This document shows positions 3,141 through 30,401 of a stretch of 64,000 nt of DNA, one piece after another. Under the pieces are notes generated by a model that was given only the letters and a program-made list of their open reading frames with translations, had not been told where the DNA came from and did not search any database. Source of the stretch: Nitrospina sp. LS_NOB. GTDB taxonomy: Bacteria > Nitrospinota > Nitrospinia > Nitrospinales > VA-1. Numbering within the stretch: the stretch's first letter is position 1; every line of letters starts with the position of its first letter. A program made the translations under genes and the position numbers. The stretch lies in assembly GCA_001542995.1 (NCBI GenBank), contig LFLA01000009.1, positions 1 to 64,000 of the forward strand, given 5' to 3'.

Positions 3141-4258
3141 CCTCTCCAGATACACCCATAGCCTTTTCCGCTCCTTTGGAGCAATACCAGGAAATCAAAG
3201 ATGAAATTGACGAAGCCATTGCCCGGGTTCTCAACAGTGGATGGTATGTTCTGGGTCGTGAGGTGGAAGAATTTGAAAAGGAGTTTGCAGCCTTTTGCGG
3301 CACCCAATATGCGGTAGGCTGTGCTTCGGGAACCGAGGCTATAGCACTAACACTAATGGCTCTGGGCATTGAACAAGGTGACGAGGTAATTACTGTTCCA
3401 AATACCGCCGTGCCCACTGTTTGCGGAATAATTATGGCGGGAGCGAAACCGGTATTTATAGATATTGACTCCTCGTACCATATGGACCCCAAACAGTTAG
3501 ACGCTGCTATTTCAAAAATGACTCGTTCCATTGTTCCGGTTCACCTTTATGGACAAACGGTGGACATGGAAGCCATCAATGAGGTTGCCCGCCACCACAA
3601 TTTATGTGTGATAGAAGATGCATGCCAGGCCCATGGTGCTGAGCTTAGAGGAAGTCGGGCCGGCTCTCTGGGACATGCTGGTTGTTTTAGCTTTTATCCC
3701 ACTAAAAATCTGGGATGTTTTGGCGATGGAGGAGCAGTTACTACTGACGACCCTGAGGTTTATGAGAGGCTCTTGCTAATTCGGAATCATGGGCAGAAAA
3801 AGCGCTATTATCATCAAGTCCGCGGCATAAATAGTCGATTAGATGAGATACAGGCGGCTGTATTGCGGGTTAAATTAAAGTATCTTGATTCATGGAATGA
3901 ACGGCGTCGAAATCTTGCGGCGGTTTATGACTCACGATTATCGGATGTTTGTGGTGTCCCCTTTGAGAAGGATGGTAATTGTCACACATATCACCTTTAT
4001 GTTATCAGAACCCGGAATCGGGAAAGCCTGCAGGAGTTTTTGAAGCAAAATGGAATAGAGACGCTAATACATTATCCCTTACCGATATACTCGCAGGAAG
4101 CGTACAGGGACATAAATCGCCGGCCTGAAGATTTTCCGCAAACAGAAAAGTTTGCAAAAGAGATTGTCAGTCTTCCTTTGCACCCGCAAATGACAAAAAG
4201 TGATGTCGAATATGTTTGCGATAAAATCATAGAGCACTTGAATGCAGGATCATTCTAA
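3137..4258 (+). CDS. DegT/DnrJ/EryC1/StrS sugar aminotransferase
   Basis: A 373-residue PLP enzyme of the nucleotide-sugar aminotransferase family. The PLP lysine is K190 (SFYPTKNLG), the cofactor aspartate lies in VIEDACQAHGA (D161), and the SGTEA phosphate-binding motif is near 64-68. It would transfer an amino group, usually from glutamate, to a keto-sugar. Overlapping the N-acetyltransferase by 4 bp, it most simply supplies that enzyme's 3-amino-sugar substrate. Length is normal for the family. Confidence 0.93.
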   Translation: MTSPDTPIAFSAPLEQYQEIKDEIDEAIARVLNSGWYVLGREVEEFEKEFAAFCGTQYAVGCASGTEAIALTLMALGIEQGDEVITVPNTAVPTVCGIIMAGAKPVFIDIDSSYHMDPKQLDAAISKMTRSIVPVHLYGQTVDMEAINEVARHHNLCVIEDACQAHGAELRGSRAGSLGHAGCFSFYPTKNLGCFGDGGAVTTDDPEVYERLLLIRNHGQKKRYYHQVRGINSRLDEIQAAVLRVKLKYLDSWNERRRNLAAVYDSRLSDVCGVPFEKDGNCHTYHLYVIRTRNRESLQEFLKQNGIETLIHYPLPIYSQEAYRDINRRPEDFPQTEKFAKEIVSLPLHPQMTKSDVEYVCDKIIEHLNAGSF

Positions 4259-4298
4259 TTGGTAATATTAATATCAAAGACATCGGGTACAAATCATT

Positions 4299-5255
4299 TT
4301 GAAGAAAAGTAAGCTTTCAGTTGTCATTCCGGTTTATTACAACAGCGAAACTCTGGAGATGTTGCACTCCCAATTGACCAAGGTGAATGAGGCCAATCCT
4401 GATATGGACATGGAGATTGTGTTTGTGGATGATGGGTCAGGAGACAACTCCTATGAAGTCATTCTAAAAATTGCAGCACAAAACCAAAACGTCATCGCTG
4501 TAAGACTTTCCAGGAATTTTGGTTCCTTTGTTGCTTGTCTGGCTGGTTTGACAAAAGCAACCGGTGATTCTGCGGTTATTATTTCGGCCGACCTCCAGGA
4601 TCCCCCCGAACTCATTTCCAAAATGTTTCTAAAATGGAAAGAGGGTAGCGAGGTTGTGATGGCGGTTCGCTCCCGACGTGAAGACAATTTTGTAAAAGTT
4701 TTCTTTGCAAACATGTATTACCGAATATTTCGCCTGCTAATCACCAAGGACATGCCTAAAATGGGTTTTGATTTCGTATTGATAGATCGAAAGATCATAG
4801 AAGTGCTGATCAATATGCAGGAGAAAAATACTACCCTGATGGGCCTTATCCTTTGGACGGGATTTCGCAGAACAGAAATACCTTATACTCGTGTGGACCG
4901 TAAATTTGGGAAGTCCAGGTGGACCCTGGCTAAAAAGATCGACTATTTTTTAGATTCAATCATGGCCTTTTCAAAATTTCCAATCAGAGTTTTTTCCCTA
5001 ATGGGTTTATTCCTGTTTTTTATGAGCTTGTTGGGTACAATTTATGTAGTAGTTGCCAAAATATTGGGGTGGGTGACTATGGCAGGGTGGTCCTCTCTCA
5101 TGGCAATGATGCTCATGTTATTTGGAATTGTTTTTTTTGCTCTTGGCATGATCGGAGAATATATATGGAGAAATCTGGAAGAATCTCGGCAACGGCCACT
5201 ATTCATCATCGAATCCGAATACCAGCATCCAGCACCTTCTGAGCAGGGGAAATGA
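4299..5255 (+). CDS. Family 2 glycosyltransferase with C-terminal membrane anchor (GtrB/DPM1-like)
   Basis: A 318-residue GT-A glycosyltransferase. The N-terminal VVIPVYYNSE strand, FVDDGSGDNS and the metal-binding SADLQDPP motif are present. Two hydrophobic helices (about 230-255 and 265-290) close the protein, as in polyprenyl-phosphate sugar transferases. It probably loads a sugar onto undecaprenyl phosphate at the inner membrane. The start is TTG with only a weak CGGG upstream, and no in-frame ATG fits better. It is the last gene of the plus-strand sugar cluster and faces the epimerase at 5378 tail to tail. Confidence 0.88.
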   Translation: MKKSKLSVVIPVYYNSETLEMLHSQLTKVNEANPDMDMEIVFVDDGSGDNSYEVILKIAAQNQNVIAVRLSRNFGSFVACLAGLTKATGDSAVIISADLQDPPELISKMFLKWKEGSEVVMAVRSRREDNFVKVFFANMYYRIFRLLITKDMPKMGFDFVLIDRKIIEVLINMQEKNTTLMGLILWTGFRRTEIPYTRVDRKFGKSRWTLAKKIDYFLDSIMAFSKFPIRVFSLMGLFLFFMSLLGTIYVVVAKILGWVTMAGWSSLMAMMLMLFGIVFFALGMIGEYIWRNLEESRQRPLFIIESEYQHPAPSEQGK

Positions 5256-5377
5256 TTAAAAGGGCCGATTATTCTTGTTTGTGTTGTCCTAATTGCGCAT
5301 TCCATTCCCCCTAACTCATACCAACTCCTGGCATAACAAACCTACAAAGGTTTTTCTAGTGGATTTCATCCGGCTTT

Positions 5378-6256
5378 TCAAATATGCCAATATGCAGCCA
5401 TACCCTCTTCCAGTTTTCTAGGAGCATAAGAAATCAACATTGACGTTTTACTGATATCCTGATCCTTGCTGCATAATAAGCGGGGAATTTGATCAGGGAC
5501 CAGAATTTTTATTCCTAAACTTGACAATACTGCCGCACCGAATTTCACAAGGTCCGCTGGCAAGTGGATCTTGGACCTCTTAACACTAAAATATTCTGCA
5601 ATTCGATCCACCAGTTCATCAAAGGTTAACTCTTCGGGCCCTGCCAATAGAAGCGTTTCATTTTCGAGTCCTTCATCGAGAATTGATCGTGTCATCGCAG
5701 AAACTACATCGTCGATATAGACTGGACTGAACCGGGCTTTCCCGGTTCCTATAACAGGCACAAAGTGGTACCTCCGAACCCATTCGATCAATCGGTTGAG
5801 GGTATCACCCGCTCCCTGACCGTACACTTCAGATGGACGAAGGATCAACCACGAGAGGCCAGCCTTCTTAACACATTCCTCGGCTTCCAGCTTGCTACGG
5901 GCATAGCCCCCTCCATCCAACGACGCGGTCCGCGAACTAATATAAACAAACCTTTTAACCCCCGCCAAAACACAGGCATCTATCAGGTTCTGGGTTCCCT
6001 CCCGGTTTACCCTGAAATATTCTGCGTCATTGCAAGAATGTGTGAGAGCCGCCAGATGCAGGACCCTGTCCATCCCCTGGCATGCCCGGTTTAAAGATTC
6101 GGGATCATTCATATTTCCGGAAACGGTTTCGCACGATTCCATTCTAACTGGTGAGCGATACTCCAGAAGACGGATAGAGAGCTCTCTCCTTTCCTGCAAC
6201 ACAACCACCAACCTACGAGCCAAGGAACTCGATGCCCCTGTGATTAAAAGTTTCAT
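5378..6256 (-). CDS. NAD-dependent epimerase/dehydratase
   Basis: A 292-residue extended SDR with catalytic YARSK (YxxxK), ISSRTAS upstream of it, and a RPSEVYGQG motif. The N-terminal dinucleotide motif is unusual: TGASSSLARRL in place of TGxxGxxG, so two conserved glycines are Ser and Ala. Substrate is unknown, but the setting among glycosyltransferase genes points to a nucleotide or lipid-linked sugar. It lies just downstream of the broken GT2 gene on the same strand, and unlike its neighbours appears intact. Confidence 0.82.
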   Translation of the reverse strand: MKLLITGASSSLARRLVVVLQERRELSIRLLEYRSPVRMESCETVSGNMNDPESLNRACQGMDRVLHLAALTHSCNDAEYFRVNREGTQNLIDACVLAGVKRFVYISSRTASLDGGGYARSKLEAEECVKKAGLSWLILRPSEVYGQGAGDTLNRLIEWVRRYHFVPVIGTGKARFSPVYIDDVVSAMTRSILDEGLENETLLLAGPEELTFDELVDRIAEYFSVKRSKIHLPADLVKFGAAVLSSLGIKILVPDQIPRLLCSKDQDISKTSMLISYAPRKLEEGMAAYWHI

Positions 6257-10149: not shown

Positions 10150-11265
10150 TCCTTTCCTGCCTCCTCACCGGTTTTATCGAAACGCAAAAAAGCATTGATA
10201 AACGGTTGCAGATCGCCATCCAGCACCGCATCCACATTACCTGCTTCCACACTCGTCCTCAGGTCTTTGACCAGTTGGTAAGGGTGCAGGACGTAAGAGC
10301 GAATCTGGCTGCCCCACTCAATCTTCTTTTTTTGTTTCTCCATTTCCTTTTTTTCTTCACCCAGTTTTTCCTGTTCCACCTCATAAATGCGGGCTTTCAA
10401 AACCTTGAGGGCCGATGCCTTGTTTTTATGTTGCGACCGTTCATTTTGGCATTGCACCACAATACCTGTCGGCACATGCGTCAGCCTCACCGCCGAATCC
10501 GTGGTGTTCACCCCCTGCCCGCCTGGTCCCGAGGCGCGATAGACATCTATCTTCAAATCTTCTTCCTTGATTTCGACTTCAATCGAATCATCAACTTCAG
10601 GATAAACAAAAACCGACGCGAACGAGGTGTGGCGTCTTTTATTTGAATCGTAGGGAGAAATGCGCACCAGACGATGAACTCCAATTTCCGCTCTTAAATA
10701 TCCAAAAGCATAATCGCCGGAAAATAAAACCGTCGCGCTTTTTATGCCCGCCTCTTCCCCATACTGGGTATCGAGGACTTCCGTCTTATAGCCATTGCGA
10801 TCTCCCCAGCGCAGGTACATCCGCAACAGCATTTCCGCCCAGTCCTGAGATTCTGTACCCCCGGCGCCGGAATTGATGGCCACGAAAGCGTTATTAAAAT
10901 CGGTTTTCCCCGAAAGCATAGCCTTCAATTCGGCCTGTGCCGCCTGTTCGCCCAACCGGGTTAAAGAGGACCGGATATCCTCATCCATAGAAGAGTCTTC
11001 CTCTTCGGCAGAAAGCTCCAGCATTGCCCCCAGGTCTTCTCTCTCTTTTTCCAGGTTTTTCCAGATTTCTATCGAACGTTGCAGGCCGGATCTTTTTTGC
11101 AGAACTTTTTGCGCGGTTTCGTTATCATCCCAGAATCCGGAGCGGGCGGTTTCCGCATCCAGAGACTCAACAGACTTCATATTCTGGTCAACGTCAAAGT
11201 AACCTCCGGAGAAGTCCAACCCTGTCCTCTATACCCTTAAAAGCTTTTGCGAAATCTTCTTGCAT
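10146..11265 (-). CDS. prfB: Peptide chain release factor 2 with programmed +1 frameshift
   Basis: RF2 recognises UGA and UAA and triggers peptidyl-tRNA hydrolysis; GGQ sits in SGPGGQGVNTTDSAVRLTH. The true start is ATG 11265. A 23-codon zero-frame segment ends in TGA (11196-11194), and the main frame resumes by +1 slippage at CTT TGA C. The slip site is preceded by CGGAGG and a 3-nt spacer, the same geometry as in E. coli. RF2 levels are thus autoregulated. The main frame alone, from an internal ATG at 11219, would miss the true N-terminus. The codon-reading tripeptide is SPY where E. coli has SPF. The stop overlaps rnz. Confidence 0.95.
11190..11210 (-). promoter_or_regulatory. prfB programmed frameshift signal
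   Basis: Read on the minus strand: internal Shine-Dalgarno CGGAGG (11208-11203), spacer TTA, slippery CTT (11199-11197), stop TGA (11196-11194) then C. This is the classic RF2 autoregulatory arrangement, in which low RF2 lets the ribosome pause at UGA and slip +1. Confidence 0.93.
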
Positions 11266-11444
11266 CTGAATCTCCCTACTCATTGACATTGCAGGTATTT
11301 TCCTCAATCTCACGCCGAAAAGCAAGCTGGCCCGACTGATTTTGACTGACGTCCTCCCTAAAAGCTGTACCGTTCCTAGGTCTAAAAATCGGTTAAAATC
11401 GGTTTTTTTAAGGGGGGAGGGTCAAAAAGTGGGAACTCTAACTT

Positions 11445-11762
11445 GAAAAATGGTACAACTGACCGGGGCAGGTCAAGCATTCTTTCGGGCTCCTGTGAAA
11501 ATAGCAGGGAAACCATCATCATGCGCGAGTACACCAGAGCAAGAGGGTTTTGCCCCTGGGTGTCCACCCGGCTTTGCAGGAAATATTCACCCTCGCCCTT
11601 AAACCAGAGCTCGCGATGCTCCCCATTCCGGATGACATAAATATCGTTATATCGAGTTTTTTCTCGCGCCAGAACCTTGACCTGAGGTTCCTCCTTTTTT
11701 TCGCTAAATACTAAATAATCGAAACATTCTAAAATCCTAAAAAATTTATCCTTATAGACCAA
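11445..11762 (-). pseudogene. N-terminal fragment of a spermidine-synthase-like protein
   Basis: About the first 95 residues (start ATG 11762) resemble the N-terminal beta domain of polyamine aminopropyltransferase-like proteins: the HRELWFKGEGEYFLQSRVDT block and then YSRMMMVSLLFSQEPERML. The next expected motif, GLGGG for binding decarboxylated SAM, is missing; the frame instead runs through unrelated sequence to a stop at 11382. The gene was probably cut just after PERML. The adjoining DNA (11370-11460) carries a direct repeat AATCGGTT and odd composition that could be a transposon end, though I cannot name one. Confidence 0.55.
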
Positions 11763-11920
11763 GATCTACAGCAAAAAGCGGTTTTCATTTTTCGTAAATA
11801 TGATAAACTTTTATATACCATTAGTGAGTTATTCAACGCATCCAGGCTAAAAACCAAGGGAACCCATACCCTTTCAAAGGGTTATAACCATGCCCCTCAT
11901 ATCATAAAGGAATATCGTCC

Positions 11921-13576
11921 ATGCCGCAAAAAGTTTTAAAACATAAAGTTGGGTTGGAAACGCATGGCTTAAAAAATCTGGAAAAAATTCACTGGAATTT
12001 ATCCACTCCTCAGCTCTACGAACACATCATCAATAACGGAGAAGGACATCTTTCCCATTTAGGGCCTGTGTGCGTAAGCACAGGGGAACATACCGGGCGC
12101 GCTCCCAAAGATAAGTTTATTGTTCAGGAGCCTTCCAGCCAGGAGAACATCTGGTGGGGGAAAGTCAACCGGCCTTTCACGGTGGAACAGTTTGAAGCCC
12201 TGTACTCCAGAGTACTGGCTTATCTTCAGGGAAAAGAAGTTTATGTGCAGGATTGTTGCGCTGGTTCCGATCCCAAGCACCAGACCCATATTCGCGTCAT
12301 CACCGAACAAGCATGGCACAGCCTGTTTGCGAGAAACATGTTTATCCAGATTCGGGATATGGCCAAACTTGAAACTCATGAGCCGGCGTTCACCGTCATT
12401 CAGGTTCCCGGTTTTAAAGCTGTTCCCGCCATTGATGGCACCAATTCAGAAGTTTTCGTTATTGTTGATTTTGGCAAACAGTTGGTTTTGATCGGTGGAA
12501 CGAGTTATGCCGGGGAAATTAAAAAATCCGTTTTCTCTATTTTAAATTACCTGCTGCCGCAAAAACAGTCAGTGTTATCCATGCATTGTTCTGCGAACAT
12601 CAGCAAAAGTGGCGATTCCGCAATATTTTTCGGGCTTTCAGGAACCGGAAAAACCACCTTATCTGCCGATCCTTTGCGCAAGCTAATCGGAGATGACGAA
12701 CATGGCTGGAGTGACCGGGGCGTTTTTAATTTTGAGGGCGGCTGTTACGCCAAGGTGATTCGCCTATCCAAGAAATCTGAACCTGAAATTTATGACTGCA
12801 CGCGACGGTTTGGCACCCTGCTTGAAAATGTGGTTATGGATCATGATACGCGCCGGCTCAATCTTGATGATGCCAGTCTCACGGAGAATACTCGCGCCAG
12901 TTACCCCATCACCCATATTAATAATGCCGTGCTCAGTGGTATGGGCGGTCACCCTAATAACGTGATCATGCTGACCTGCGACGCATATGGGGTCATGCCT
13001 CCGGTTTCCAAGCTCACCCCGGAACAGGCCATGTATCATTTTATCTCAGGCTATACCGCAAAAGTGGCAGGCACCGAAAAAGGCATGAGCCGTGAACCTA
13101 CAGCAATTTTCAGCACCTGTTTTGGCGCTCCATTCATGTCCCTGCACCCTTCCGTTTATGCAGATATGCTGGGTGAAAGGATTTCCAAGCATGGCGTGTC
13201 CTGTTGGTTGGTGAATACCGGATGGACGGGTGGGCCTTATGGGGTCGGACACCGGGTAGAAATCAAATATACCCGGGCCATGATCAAGGCTATTCTCGAA
13301 GGCCAGTTGGATAAGGTGAAAACCCAGGAAGATCCGGTTTTCGGCCTGCATATCCCGCTTAAGGTTAAATCGGTCCCGGATGAAATCCTTCAGCCTAGAA
13401 ACACCTGGAAAAACCCGGAAGCCTACGACGAAAAAGCCCAGGAACTTGCAAACCAATTTATTGAAAATTTCAAAGAATACGAAGACAACGTAGATAAAAA
13501 AATCCTGGATGCCAGTCCAAGGCCGTCCGGGTCGTCAAAAAAACCCAAGGGGAAAATCCATAAATTGAGGAAGTGA
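11921..13576 (+). CDS. pckA: Phosphoenolpyruvate carboxykinase (ATP)
   Basis: A 551-residue ATP-type PEP carboxykinase that interconverts oxaloacetate plus ATP with PEP, CO2 and ADP. The kinase-1a P-loop GLSGTGKTTLSADP is near residues 236-249, with the downstream GDDEHGW metal-binding motif, and the RVITEQAWHSLF and TNSEVFVIVDFG blocks are typical. It ends in a basic Ser/Lys-rich tail of about 25 residues. The ATG follows AAAGGA closely. It stands 48 bp before pdxA on the same strand. Confidence 0.96.
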   Translation: MPQKVLKHKVGLETHGLKNLEKIHWNLSTPQLYEHIINNGEGHLSHLGPVCVSTGEHTGRAPKDKFIVQEPSSQENIWWGKVNRPFTVEQFEALYSRVLAYLQGKEVYVQDCCAGSDPKHQTHIRVITEQAWHSLFARNMFIQIRDMAKLETHEPAFTVIQVPGFKAVPAIDGTNSEVFVIVDFGKQLVLIGGTSYAGEIKKSVFSILNYLLPQKQSVLSMHCSANISKSGDSAIFFGLSGTGKTTLSADPLRKLIGDDEHGWSDRGVFNFEGGCYAKVIRLSKKSEPEIYDCTRRFGTLLENVVMDHDTRRLNLDDASLTENTRASYPITHINNAVLSGMGGHPNNVIMLTCDAYGVMPPVSKLTPEQAMYHFISGYTAKVAGTEKGMSREPTAIFSTCFGAPFMSLHPSVYADMLGERISKHGVSCWLVNTGWTGGPYGVGHRVEIKYTRAMIKAILEGQLDKVKTQEDPVFGLHIPLKVKSVPDEILQPRNTWKNPEAYDEKAQELANQFIENFKEYEDNVDKKILDASPRPSGSSKKPKGKIHKLRK

Positions 13577-28424: not shown

Positions 28425-30401
28425 ATGCGCTCCAAAAACAAAAAAAATGAGTCACCCAGCAGTCCCCTGAAACGCACCTTTCTGACATTGATCTGGGTGG
28501 GCGTATTGGGCGTTGGGTTGTGGGCCTTGATGCATTATTCAGCACCTGAAAGCAATCTGGAACCTTATAATAAAATTCAGGAAGCCAAAACGGAACGTGA
28601 GCAAGCGGAACGTGAAAAAGCGAAACTGGAAAAGAAAGCAGCCGAGCCTGAAAAAAAAGCACCCGAATTCACCCTTCCCAGCGATCTGGACACAGGGAAC
28701 CTGATTAAAACCGCCACATCTCCTATACAGACTCCCCAATCGCAATTGCCCCGGGAGACCCTGGAACATATCCAGAAAGGCATGCTGTTGACCGAGGAAG
28801 GCAGGTTCAACGCAGGAGATATAGAATTCGAAAAAGCCGCCAAGATCAGCCCCAACTCACCGGAACTGTTTTCTATCTGGGGCGCGGCGCTTCGCATGGC
28901 GAAAAAGTTTGTAGGCGCCAACCGGCGGTTTGCCCGGGCTCATGAACTCTCGCCTAATGACGAAGAAATCACCTTTAACTGGGGCATGACCGAACTGGAA
29001 GCCGATCATCCTGAAGAAGCCACTCGACTGTTTCAAAAAACCGTCAAGCTTTCTCCCAACAACTATATGGCTTACAACATGCTGGGCAAATCCCTCGGCC
29101 GCCAGAAAATGTACGAAGAAGAGAAATCGGCCTACAAGAAGGCTATTTCTATCAACCCGGATTTTGCCCAGAGCTATTTCAACCTGGGCATTGTATTGGG
29201 CATCCAGAAAAAGTTTGAAACCGCCGCGCCGCATTTTCTCAAAGCTATTGAGTTGGACAAGCAGTTCGAAAAACCTTTCGTCATCCAGATGCTGACGGCA
29301 TTAGGACTTTATGACTCAGCGGCTGAAAAACCGATCAAGAAAGATGTGCCTAAACCTCAGGAACCGGTTCAGCAGGCCAAAGTCGAAACAGCGGAAGCAA
29401 AAGTCGAAAAAGTCAGCAACGATAAAAAGTCCGAAGGCTCCGACCATAAGATGGAAGAAGGCTCCAAGAAAGTTAAAAACACGACGACGGTCAAAGGCAA
29501 TATCAAGATCAATGGCAGAAAACCCGGACCCAACACATTGGTATTTCTGGAAACCAAAAGCAAACTGAGATCAGCCAATCAGAAACCTCAGGAACTGACC
29601 ATCCGCCAGAGCGGGTTGCAGTTCAGTCCCCAACATTCGGTGATACAGGTAGGCTCCACCGTCACCTTTTCCAACGAAGACCGCGAGGTGCACAATATTT
29701 TTTCCAAGTCACTCAGCAACCAGTTCAATCTCGGGGCCATGGCGTCGGGCTCTTTCAAAACCGTCAAGTTCACCCAGGCCGGACCCGTGGTGCTGAGATG
29801 CAATATGCATAAAGACATGATCGGAACCCTGTTCGTTGTACCTAATGGTCATTACACCAAACCTGACACTAACGGGGACTATCAGTTCGACAACATCAAA
29901 AGTGAAGGCTACATCATGCAGGTCTGGGACCCCATGCTGGCCCCGGATGAAGTGGAAGCCAACCTCCTGTCCGCTGACCTGACCGGTGTCGACCAGACCT
30001 TCGATTTCAATATCAAGTCCGCTTCGGTTGCAGGCGAAATCCACGACATGACCGACCCGACCGATTACAACGCGATTGTGGACATTATCGAAAAAGAAAT
30101 GCTGCAAGCCATCGAAGACTGGAAAAACGGCAAAAAGTTTATCTCCCGCAAGCGCATGCTGATGGCCATCACCAAACATTATGCTGGAGAAGGCCTGAAA
30201 GGCGCGATCGCTAAAAGCTTCAGTTCCAAACGCAGTATCCTGCTGGAACAGAAAATGGATAAGATCCGCAAAGAAATTTCCGGATACGGCAAGTCCAAAG
30301 ACCCGGTCACCGAAGACTCGCTCATCAGCCAGGCTAAATTCGCCGTTTCACAACTACGCCTGAACGTCAAAGAACTCGCCGCTAGGCGCGGGGCCGACTA
30401 G
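28425..30401 (+). CDS. TPR-cupredoxin fusion protein
   Basis: A 658-residue protein: signal anchor (about 17-37), Glu/Lys-rich coiled stretch (45-75), four or so TPR units (about 113-290), Lys/Glu linker, then a plastocyanin-like domain (about 390-480). Candidate type 1 copper ligands are the His in REVHNIF and Cys, His and Met in LRCNMHKDM. A further region of about 170 residues is unassigned. It is probably periplasmic and membrane-tethered, perhaps an electron carrier held in a complex by the TPRs. The C-terminus RRGAD is encoded by a repeat copy. Confidence 0.8.
   Translation: MRSKNKKNESPSSPLKRTFLTLIWVGVLGVGLWALMHYSAPESNLEPYNKIQEAKTEREQAEREKAKLEKKAAEPEKKAPEFTLPSDLDTGNLIKTATSPIQTPQSQLPRETLEHIQKGMLLTEEGRFNAGDIEFEKAAKISPNSPELFSIWGAALRMAKKFVGANRRFARAHELSPNDEEITFNWGMTELEADHPEEATRLFQKTVKLSPNNYMAYNMLGKSLGRQKMYEEEKSAYKKAISINPDFAQSYFNLGIVLGIQKKFETAAPHFLKAIELDKQFEKPFVIQMLTALGLYDSAAEKPIKKDVPKPQEPVQQAKVETAEAKVEKVSNDKKSEGSDHKMEEGSKKVKNTTTVKGNIKINGRKPGPNTLVFLETKSKLRSANQKPQELTIRQSGLQFSPQHSVIQVGSTVTFSNEDREVHNIFSKSLSNQFNLGAMASGSFKTVKFTQAGPVVLRCNMHKDMIGTLFVVPNGHYTKPDTNGDYQFDNIKSEGYIMQVWDPMLAPDEVEANLLSADLTGVDQTFDFNIKSASVAGEIHDMTDPTDYNAIVDIIEKEMLQAIEDWKNGKKFISRKRMLMAITKHYAGEGLKGAIAKSFSSKRSILLEQKMDKIRKEISGYGKSKDPVTEDSLISQAKFAVSQLRLNVKELAARRGAD

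Follow-up and report, generated by a model that had tools for sequence, protein, structure and literature searches.

Our analysis identified in Nitrospina sp. LS_NOB a gene coding for a 658-residue protein in which a membrane anchor, a charged coil, TPRs, a type 1 copper (cupredoxin) domain and a C-terminal helical bundle follow one another, and whole-domain profile similarity indicates that the bundle (residues ~546-655) is a derived relative of FTR1-N, the N-terminal helical domain of FTR1 iron permeases. A sequence-only reading of the window, the stretch of 64,000 nucleotides that was analysed, had proposed the fusion of anchor, charged coil, TPRs and cupredoxin in one polypeptide, and all four were indeed found in this single open reading frame (Table 1). 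Its picture of a scaffold carrying a copper site on a membrane tether also stands, and the tail that it had left unassigned is now recognized as an FTR1-N homologue. As the best explanation we tentatively propose a periplasmic adaptor for redox or metal work, tethered to the membrane and laid out like EfeO, that would most likely serve iron handling. The observed basis is the architecture, four invariant ligand residues, a bundle homologous to FTR1-N, conservation across the order, and the lack of any M75 or P19 match there.

Table 1. Features of the 658-residue protein and its gene, in positions of the window
Feature	Position	Strand	Basis
Gene for the anchor-coil-TPR-cupredoxin-helical bundle protein (658 aa)	28425..30401	+	ORF and orthologues
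Signal anchor / single transmembrane helix, residues 17-38	28473..28538	+	hydropathy, model
Charged helix / coil, residues 49-72	28569..28640	+	structure model
Five TPR helix pairs (residues 110-277) and a further helix (284-292)	28752..29300	+	Pfam, model, fold search
Conserved linear motif EGSDHKMEEGSK, residues 337-348, end of disordered linker	29433..29468	+	alignment
Cupredoxin (type 1 copper) domain, strands over residues 353-478	29481..29858	+	Pfam, model, PDB alignments
His423, predicted Cu ligand	29691..29693	+	58/58
Cys459, predicted Cu ligand	29799..29801	+	58/58
His462, predicted Cu ligand	29808..29810	+	58/58
Met465, predicted axial Cu ligand (C-x2-H-x2-M)	29817..29819	+	58/58
Carboxypeptidase-regulatory-like C-terminal strands of the sandwich, residues 475-535	29847..30029	+	CarboxypepD_reg in relatives
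FTR1-N-homologous helical bundle, residues 546-655	30060..30389	+	hhalign, HMMER

The search for the same fusion elsewhere, suggested by the sequence-only reading, was rewarded with co-linear orthologues throughout one Nitrospinota order. A profile of the C-terminal domain of the family (A1) matched 61 of the 64 genomes of this order, LS_NOB included, among 387 genomes searched; the three without a match were G009, G011 and G023, and the three partial matches outside the order were weak (6e-4 to 4e-3 over 43-58 columns) and are regarded as chance. The gene is single copy in 60 of the 61 genomes, with two copies in G061, and orthologues were co-linear over their full length where read, save those ended by contig edges. 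By depositors' titles, 52 of the 55 orthologue loci in named genomes belong to Nitrospinota or one of its subgroups and three to Nitrospirae/Nitrospirota. Family members share 48-87% identity, and conservation at this level rules out chance. Conservation is highest in the bundle (mean majority residue 0.77), followed by residues 353-480 (0.74) and the TPRs (0.71), and residues 41-110 are only weakly conserved (0.36). Presence in so many genomes, mostly as a single copy, suggests that the gene is probably important. The fusion is described nowhere in the open-licence literature searched, among the matches listed; within the available parts of two sources, three copper genes were counted in N. 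gracilis by the authors' own method (PMC4585252) and a TPR gene and a cupredoxin gene appear as separate genes (PMC5371394).

Gene neighbours, also proposed as a check, could be compared but did not discriminate, since the nine scanned (AI-2E, DUF2066, pseudouridine synthase, ScpB, DCD, CysS, DUF2851, PAPS_reduct and GTPase/APS kinase) favour neither iron handling nor respiratory electron transfer. At the 55 named loci, many of them truncated, DCD was present in at least 50, ScpB in at least 47 and CysS in at least 34 (presence only). These recurring neighbours are housekeeping genes, and an operon-based function was therefore rejected. A promoter and terminator scan at the gene gave no signal beyond that of shuffles.

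The N-terminus is rich in K/R (5, against 1 D/E, in residues 1-16) and the best 19-residue Kyte-Doolittle mean, 2.01, falls at residue 18. On the same scale, 53 of 55 orthologues longer than 600 aa have a hydrophobic stretch above 1.6 near the N-terminus, and the region is modelled as a helix spanning residues 14-38, from which we infer an uncleaved signal anchor. The repeats that follow are tandem helix pairs by Pfam (TPR_2, 3.5e-18), structure model and fold search; their presence had been correctly predicted, but the model has five helix pairs, not about four. Among solved chains, MamA scores best for this region (Z 22.4, with an rmsd of 2.1 over 173 residues), and searches with the full model (Foldseek, VIA-align) returned nothing but TPRs among the matches listed. 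Both MamA and PilW were dropped as family assignments because the likeness is one of fold only. It can fairly be inferred that the TPRs dock a partner.

The structure model (mean pLDDT 78.3, pTM 0.37) contains a disordered stretch at residues 304-348 (pLDDT <50), a beta sandwich at 353-530 and a helical bundle at 548-655, with helices at 548-567, 571-587, 591-598, 601-619 and 630-655. Given the low pTM and the disordered linker, the model does not fix the placing of the domains relative to each other. The best conserved part of the linker is the motif EGS-x-H-x-M-(E)-EGSK, which directly precedes the copper domain. Among 58 family sequences (57 genomes, LS_NOB included), its H341 is kept in 52 and its M343 in 51. 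In a set of 64 genomes, 58 of the order and 6 of the class, the coding pattern of the motif has 26 exact matches, every one of them within the 658-aa gene family. The motif could bind copper or a partner.

In the copper domain, the His, Cys, His and Met ligand set anticipated by the sequence-only reading proved to be present in the order expected of a type 1 site, kept at each position in every family sequence, and aligned with blue-copper proteins. PF00127 matched all 16 scanned members and PF13473 15 of them at E <= 0.1. For LS_NOB, PF00127 scored 23.8 bits on the domain and 20.6 on the whole protein, with a cut-off of 21.2, and PF13473 scored 25.2 and 22.0, respectively, with a cut-off of 27. 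The 16-member profile matched nitrite reductase in the PDB at E 1e-4 and plastocyanins and amicyanins more weakly (0.01 to 0.1). In both plastocyanin and the blue-copper domain of nitrite reductase, the residues aligned with the four positions are H, C, H and M, which we take to be the copper ligands of these proteins; the match 5fc9 has no Met at the position equivalent to Met465. In the model, C459 closes strand 453-459 and M465 stands just before strand 466-472, as fits the cupredoxin fold, and the residues around the ligands are invariant (NQFNLGAM and RCN-H--M). CarboxypepD_reg was matched by 11 of the 16 members at E <= 0.1, the LS_NOB protein not among them; there, residues ~475-535 finish a carboxypeptidase-regulatory-like sandwich, and an equivalent stretch is present in relatives. 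On these matches, the cupredoxin is of the kind that shares one sandwich with carboxypeptidase-regulatory-like strands.

Elsewhere in these genomes the sandwich has relatives, as stand-alone proteins or within other fusions, and those scanned had no Pfam copper match, so they are called cupredoxin-like by similarity and motif only. A second protein joining TPRs to a cupredoxin-like/CarboxypepD_reg sandwich, of 471 aa, is encoded on LS_NOB contig C1 (L009:10016-11431, minus strand). In a tree of the sandwich it groups with another C1 protein (100/99), and the 658-aa family forms a clade of its own (100/100). These separate clades suggest that TPRs and sandwich were probably joined twice in the LS_NOB genome, and the 471-aa protein is probably an independent fusion.

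The C-terminal domain gave nothing credible in Pfam, NCBIfam or PDB sequence searches and, modelled alone (pLDDT 61.8), no fold match at E <= 0.001. The link to FTR1-N was sought more than once: the initial profile was null, but its hit was in register, and this, together with a pattern known from other FTR1 proteins, prompted wider profiles, which were positive. Compared by hhalign with all 22 FTR1-N domains from outside the order, A1 reached a probability of 96.3% (score 53.8); with six domains of the order added (28 in all) it reached 95.3% (score 47.1; maximum of 60 column shuffles, 16.4), and with a 3-row subset 94.4% (score 47.4; shuffle maximum 22.7). The highest values, 96.8% and 60.0, were obtained with A5, a profile of 13 rows hand-picked from the 22 domains. 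The nine dropped were the M75 domain, the middle copy of L220 and seven domains whose type is more distant. Nine of the rows kept come from Pfam FTR1 frames, three have the REG-x-E motif only (two from L220 and one from L230) and the remaining one is from L229, a frame of 223 aa that Pfam does not match; two rows are from G065 and none from the order. Seven control segments, three of TPR and four of FTR1, scored no higher than 17.1 against A1, with probabilities of at most 2.6%.

Genome searches were consistent with this kinship. In LS_NOB, A5 (HMMER) found FTR1 first (2.3e-11), the 658-aa gene second (8.4e-6) and its next match at 0.55. Among the 387 genomes it matched 52 of the 61 that bear an orthologue at E <= 0.001, missing nine, and its other matches within the order lay at or just upstream of FTR1 matches. 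Ten carriers outside the order were, by Pfam, eight FTR1 proteins, one M75/imelysin protein and the 223-aa frame. The profile also matches designed helical PDB proteins over a short hairpin and is thus partly generic. The M75/imelysin protein (L233, G184) was picked up by the FTR1-N profile at frame residues ~233-336, hinting that FTR1-N domains and imelysin halves may be related.

Comparisons with the order's own permeases were null. Against 30 FTR1-N domains, 29 of the order and one of G065, covering the segment before the membrane domain, A1 reached 0.8% (P 0.069; eight shuffles did equally well). A segment of the order's FTR1 further upstream gave 0.3% against the tail domain, and the A4 profile, with seven of its eight rows from the order, did not match the 658-aa gene. 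This indicates kinship of the tail with the wider FTR1 family and not a recent copy of the local permease. A5 has seven invariant residues, of which the family retains only Gly569 (18 of 19 sequences) and Glu608 (19 of 19). The invariant Phe and second Glu are replaced by Thr583 and Lys592 (19 of 19 each), the Tyr is mostly I, and the first Glu is D or A and rarely E or Q. Both kept residues lie outside the AYFxxFE--GxE stretch of FTR1, whose conserved residues the tail does not retain. With most of these residues replaced, the FTR1 signature is largely gone, which marks the tail as a derived member of FTR1-N, and the bundle may not bind iron as the permease does. An FTR1-N-like tail would indicate periplasmic iron handling at least as much as electron transfer.

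The iron genes of the order lead us to place iron handling first. FTR1 (PF03239) was found in 55 of the 64 genomes of the order, and the nine without it are 59-83% complete. The FTR1 of LS_NOB is 718 residues long; its N-terminal half contains a cytochrome c domain and it has the same kind of bundle, so that the combination of redox domain and bundle recurs. M75 (imelysin/EfeO) was detected in none of 80 genomes, the 64 of the order included, by a search that was positive in 4 of 14 control genomes. P19 was found in none of the 64, in one of the 80 (G065) and in one of the 14 controls. FTR1 and the 658-aa gene are both near-universal in the order and their co-occurrence therefore proves little; in LS_NOB the two are not adjacent, FTR1 being on another contig. 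There, on contig C26, FTR1 with its cytochrome c is followed by a PepSY/BNR-type membrane protein (L082:5616-7772 and 4072-5607, minus strand), and the two appear by eye to have similar helical tails at their ends. G065 belongs to the same class but not to the order; there, a copper-domain relative adjoins FTR1, with P19 and Fur within 6 kb. L replaces the Met ligand in this relative, which has no Pfam copper match. A Rosetta-stone link through this relative was rejected: although the two genes are truly adjacent, the tree, whose branches are long, does not join the relative to the 658-aa family.

EfeO consists of a cupredoxin and M75, according to the available part of PMC9174327, and imelysin or M75 of two similar four-helix bundles, with a few EfeO proteins fused to a permease, according to that of PMC3143127. 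The open-licence literature searched gave nothing on Ftr1 with imelysin, N-terminal domain and cytochrome together. It is the EfeO layout, together with FTR1 in an order without M75 or P19 matches and with the neighbourhood in G065, that puts the EfeO-like reading first. This reading is an analogy of layout combined with homology of the bundle, and not membership of the EfeO family: M75 had no match in the 658-aa protein at E <= 1 and matched 2 of 19 members (best E 0.055), and the EfeO motif GxHxxE occurs in none of the 58 family sequences. With both tests negative, the protein was not filed as EfeO. As we picture it, the protein would be anchored in the inner membrane and face the periplasm, where a MamA-like hook of five repeats would hold a presumed partner. 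A type 1 copper centre, if it binds copper as predicted, would pass single electrons in one direction or the other. Contact with the permease or a related iron protein would run through the bundle, the TPRs or both, with iron as the presumed substrate, and the copper site would exchange an electron with the bound metal. Such an adaptor would act in an order that has FTR1 but where EfeO/EfeM and P19 were not found.

Second to iron handling, and in our judgement unlikely though a serious competitor, is the docked electron transfer favoured by the sequence-only reading. In this view the TPRs would hold a copper electron carrier at a complex of the nitrite-oxidising respiratory chain (nitrite oxidoreductase, bd-like oxidase or cytochrome oxidase), with the bundle as a docking or spacing module. 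Copper carriers toward an oxidase or bc complex are suggested in the available part of Lucker 2013 (PMC3578206), on account of two cupredoxin-like proteins in a conserved cluster around nxr. LS_NOB contig C1 has a 285-aa cupredoxin-like gene (L171:12701-13555, minus strand) that carries the motif C-x2-H-x2-M but is not matched by Pfam copper families. It overlaps a gene (10795-12744, minus strand) whose product combines an EB_dh domain with three cytochrome c domains and resembles the alternative NxrC of that paper, as far as its available part describes it. A large frame in the same region was taken by eye for a multicopper oxidase. The second TPR fusion lies further along contig C1, the invariant surroundings of the ligands are as expected for a conserved docking face, and with the acidic residues of FTR1-N lost, a main reason to expect iron is removed. 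However, the nine neighbours scanned include no nxr or oxidase gene, three different contigs carry the nxrB-like match (C10), the NxrC-like gene (C1) and the 658-aa gene (C2), and the two C1 cupredoxin-like proteins form their own clade (100/99) apart from the 658-aa family. The gene also occurs in G047, a genome 96% complete that has no nxrB-like match of its relatives' kind, by a profile that is a weak proxy; nxr is often lost in binning. A respiratory carrier also leaves the homology to FTR1-N unexplained.

Copper acquisition or chaperoning, in which the cupredoxin and the His/Met linker motif would take up copper and pass it on while the TPRs dock a recipient enzyme, seems improbable to us. 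The conserved motif just before the copper domain, with its exact pattern confined to the family in the 64 genomes, speaks for it, and the available part of PMC3578206 attests Nitrospina copper enzymes (NirK and a multicopper oxidase) that could be recipients. Yet the motif lacks its His in 6 and its Met in 7 of the 58 sequences, and no copper genes are among the nine neighbours scanned. The His/Cys/His/Met set, moreover, is that of an electron-transfer site and not of an exchange site, which speaks against copper exchange.

Slightly less probable again is an envelope scaffold or sensor in which a partner bound by the TPRs would learn of redox or copper status from the copper site: stand-alone copper-domain relatives in the order (about 205 aa, by similarity) adjoin frames of 634-644 aa, of which the one scanned (L185) is a HAMP plus cyclase, and two relatives outside the order adjoin frames that look sensor-like (L177, L180), but regulator domains were found neither in the 658-aa protein nor in the nine neighbours scanned, and the three stand-alone relatives in the tree form a separate clade (100/100). 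The stand-alone relatives of the order lie in a repeated block (L179, L181, L183, L185 and L187) in the order glutamyl-tRNA reductase, hemC-like, cupredoxin-like, a frame of ~238 aa and HAMP-cyclase, assigned by domain scan in L185 and by frame length and look in the others. The proximity of a copper-type protein and a cyclase is suggestive of signalling by redox state or copper at those loci.

According to the available part of PMC3578206, no marine nitrite oxidisers are met with more often than relatives of Nitrospina, and in the partly available sources their periplasmic electron carriers and iron import are not settled. The FTR1-N homology of the tail turns a loosely defined redox scaffold into a testable hypothesis of iron import or respiratory wiring. 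A bolder form of the iron-handling proposal, which we regard as a long shot, would have Nitrospinota nitrite oxidisers replace EfeO and P19 by a tethered, TPR-docked blue copper protein on FTR1, the electron of Fe(II) leaving via the copper site and the permease's cytochrome c toward the respiratory chain. If true, iron import would be coupled to respiration via the copper site and the FTR1-fused cytochrome c.

Compared with known systems, the copper domain has the four ligands of plastocyanin and amicyanin in order, and the PDB matches include both; the C-x2-H-x2-M spacing is presumably shared by amicyanin. Unlike these proteins, it is set in a CarboxypepD_reg-like sandwich and fused to TPRs and a bundle. 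The 471-aa protein of contig C1 likewise has TPRs followed by the same type of sandwich, but it reads C-x2-H-x2-L, without the Met ligand, and has neither a Pfam copper match nor an FTR1-N match. The TPR fold resembles that of MamA, the magnetosome TPR scaffold, but the likeness ends there, as the NCBIfam equivalog for MamA scored 61.7 bits against a cut-off of 200. With FTR1/EfeU-type permeases the protein shares a C-terminal bundle that is homologous, by profile, to their N-terminal domain, but it is without the permease membrane domain and most signature residues are replaced. EfeO comes closest, being a cupredoxin followed by an all-helical bundle in one chain, a kind of bundle that is also fused to FTR1 permeases, and Cupredoxin_1 is among the best Pfam matches of the 658-aa protein. 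According to the available part of PMC3143127, EfeO has two bundles of about 250 residues in all, with GxHxxE. Its gene stands with efeU/efeB, and efe genes are not among the nine neighbours scanned here. The 658-aa protein has instead one bundle of ~110 residues, and may be seen as a conserved cupredoxin-plus-bundle variant to which a membrane anchor and TPRs were added, so far seen in one order.
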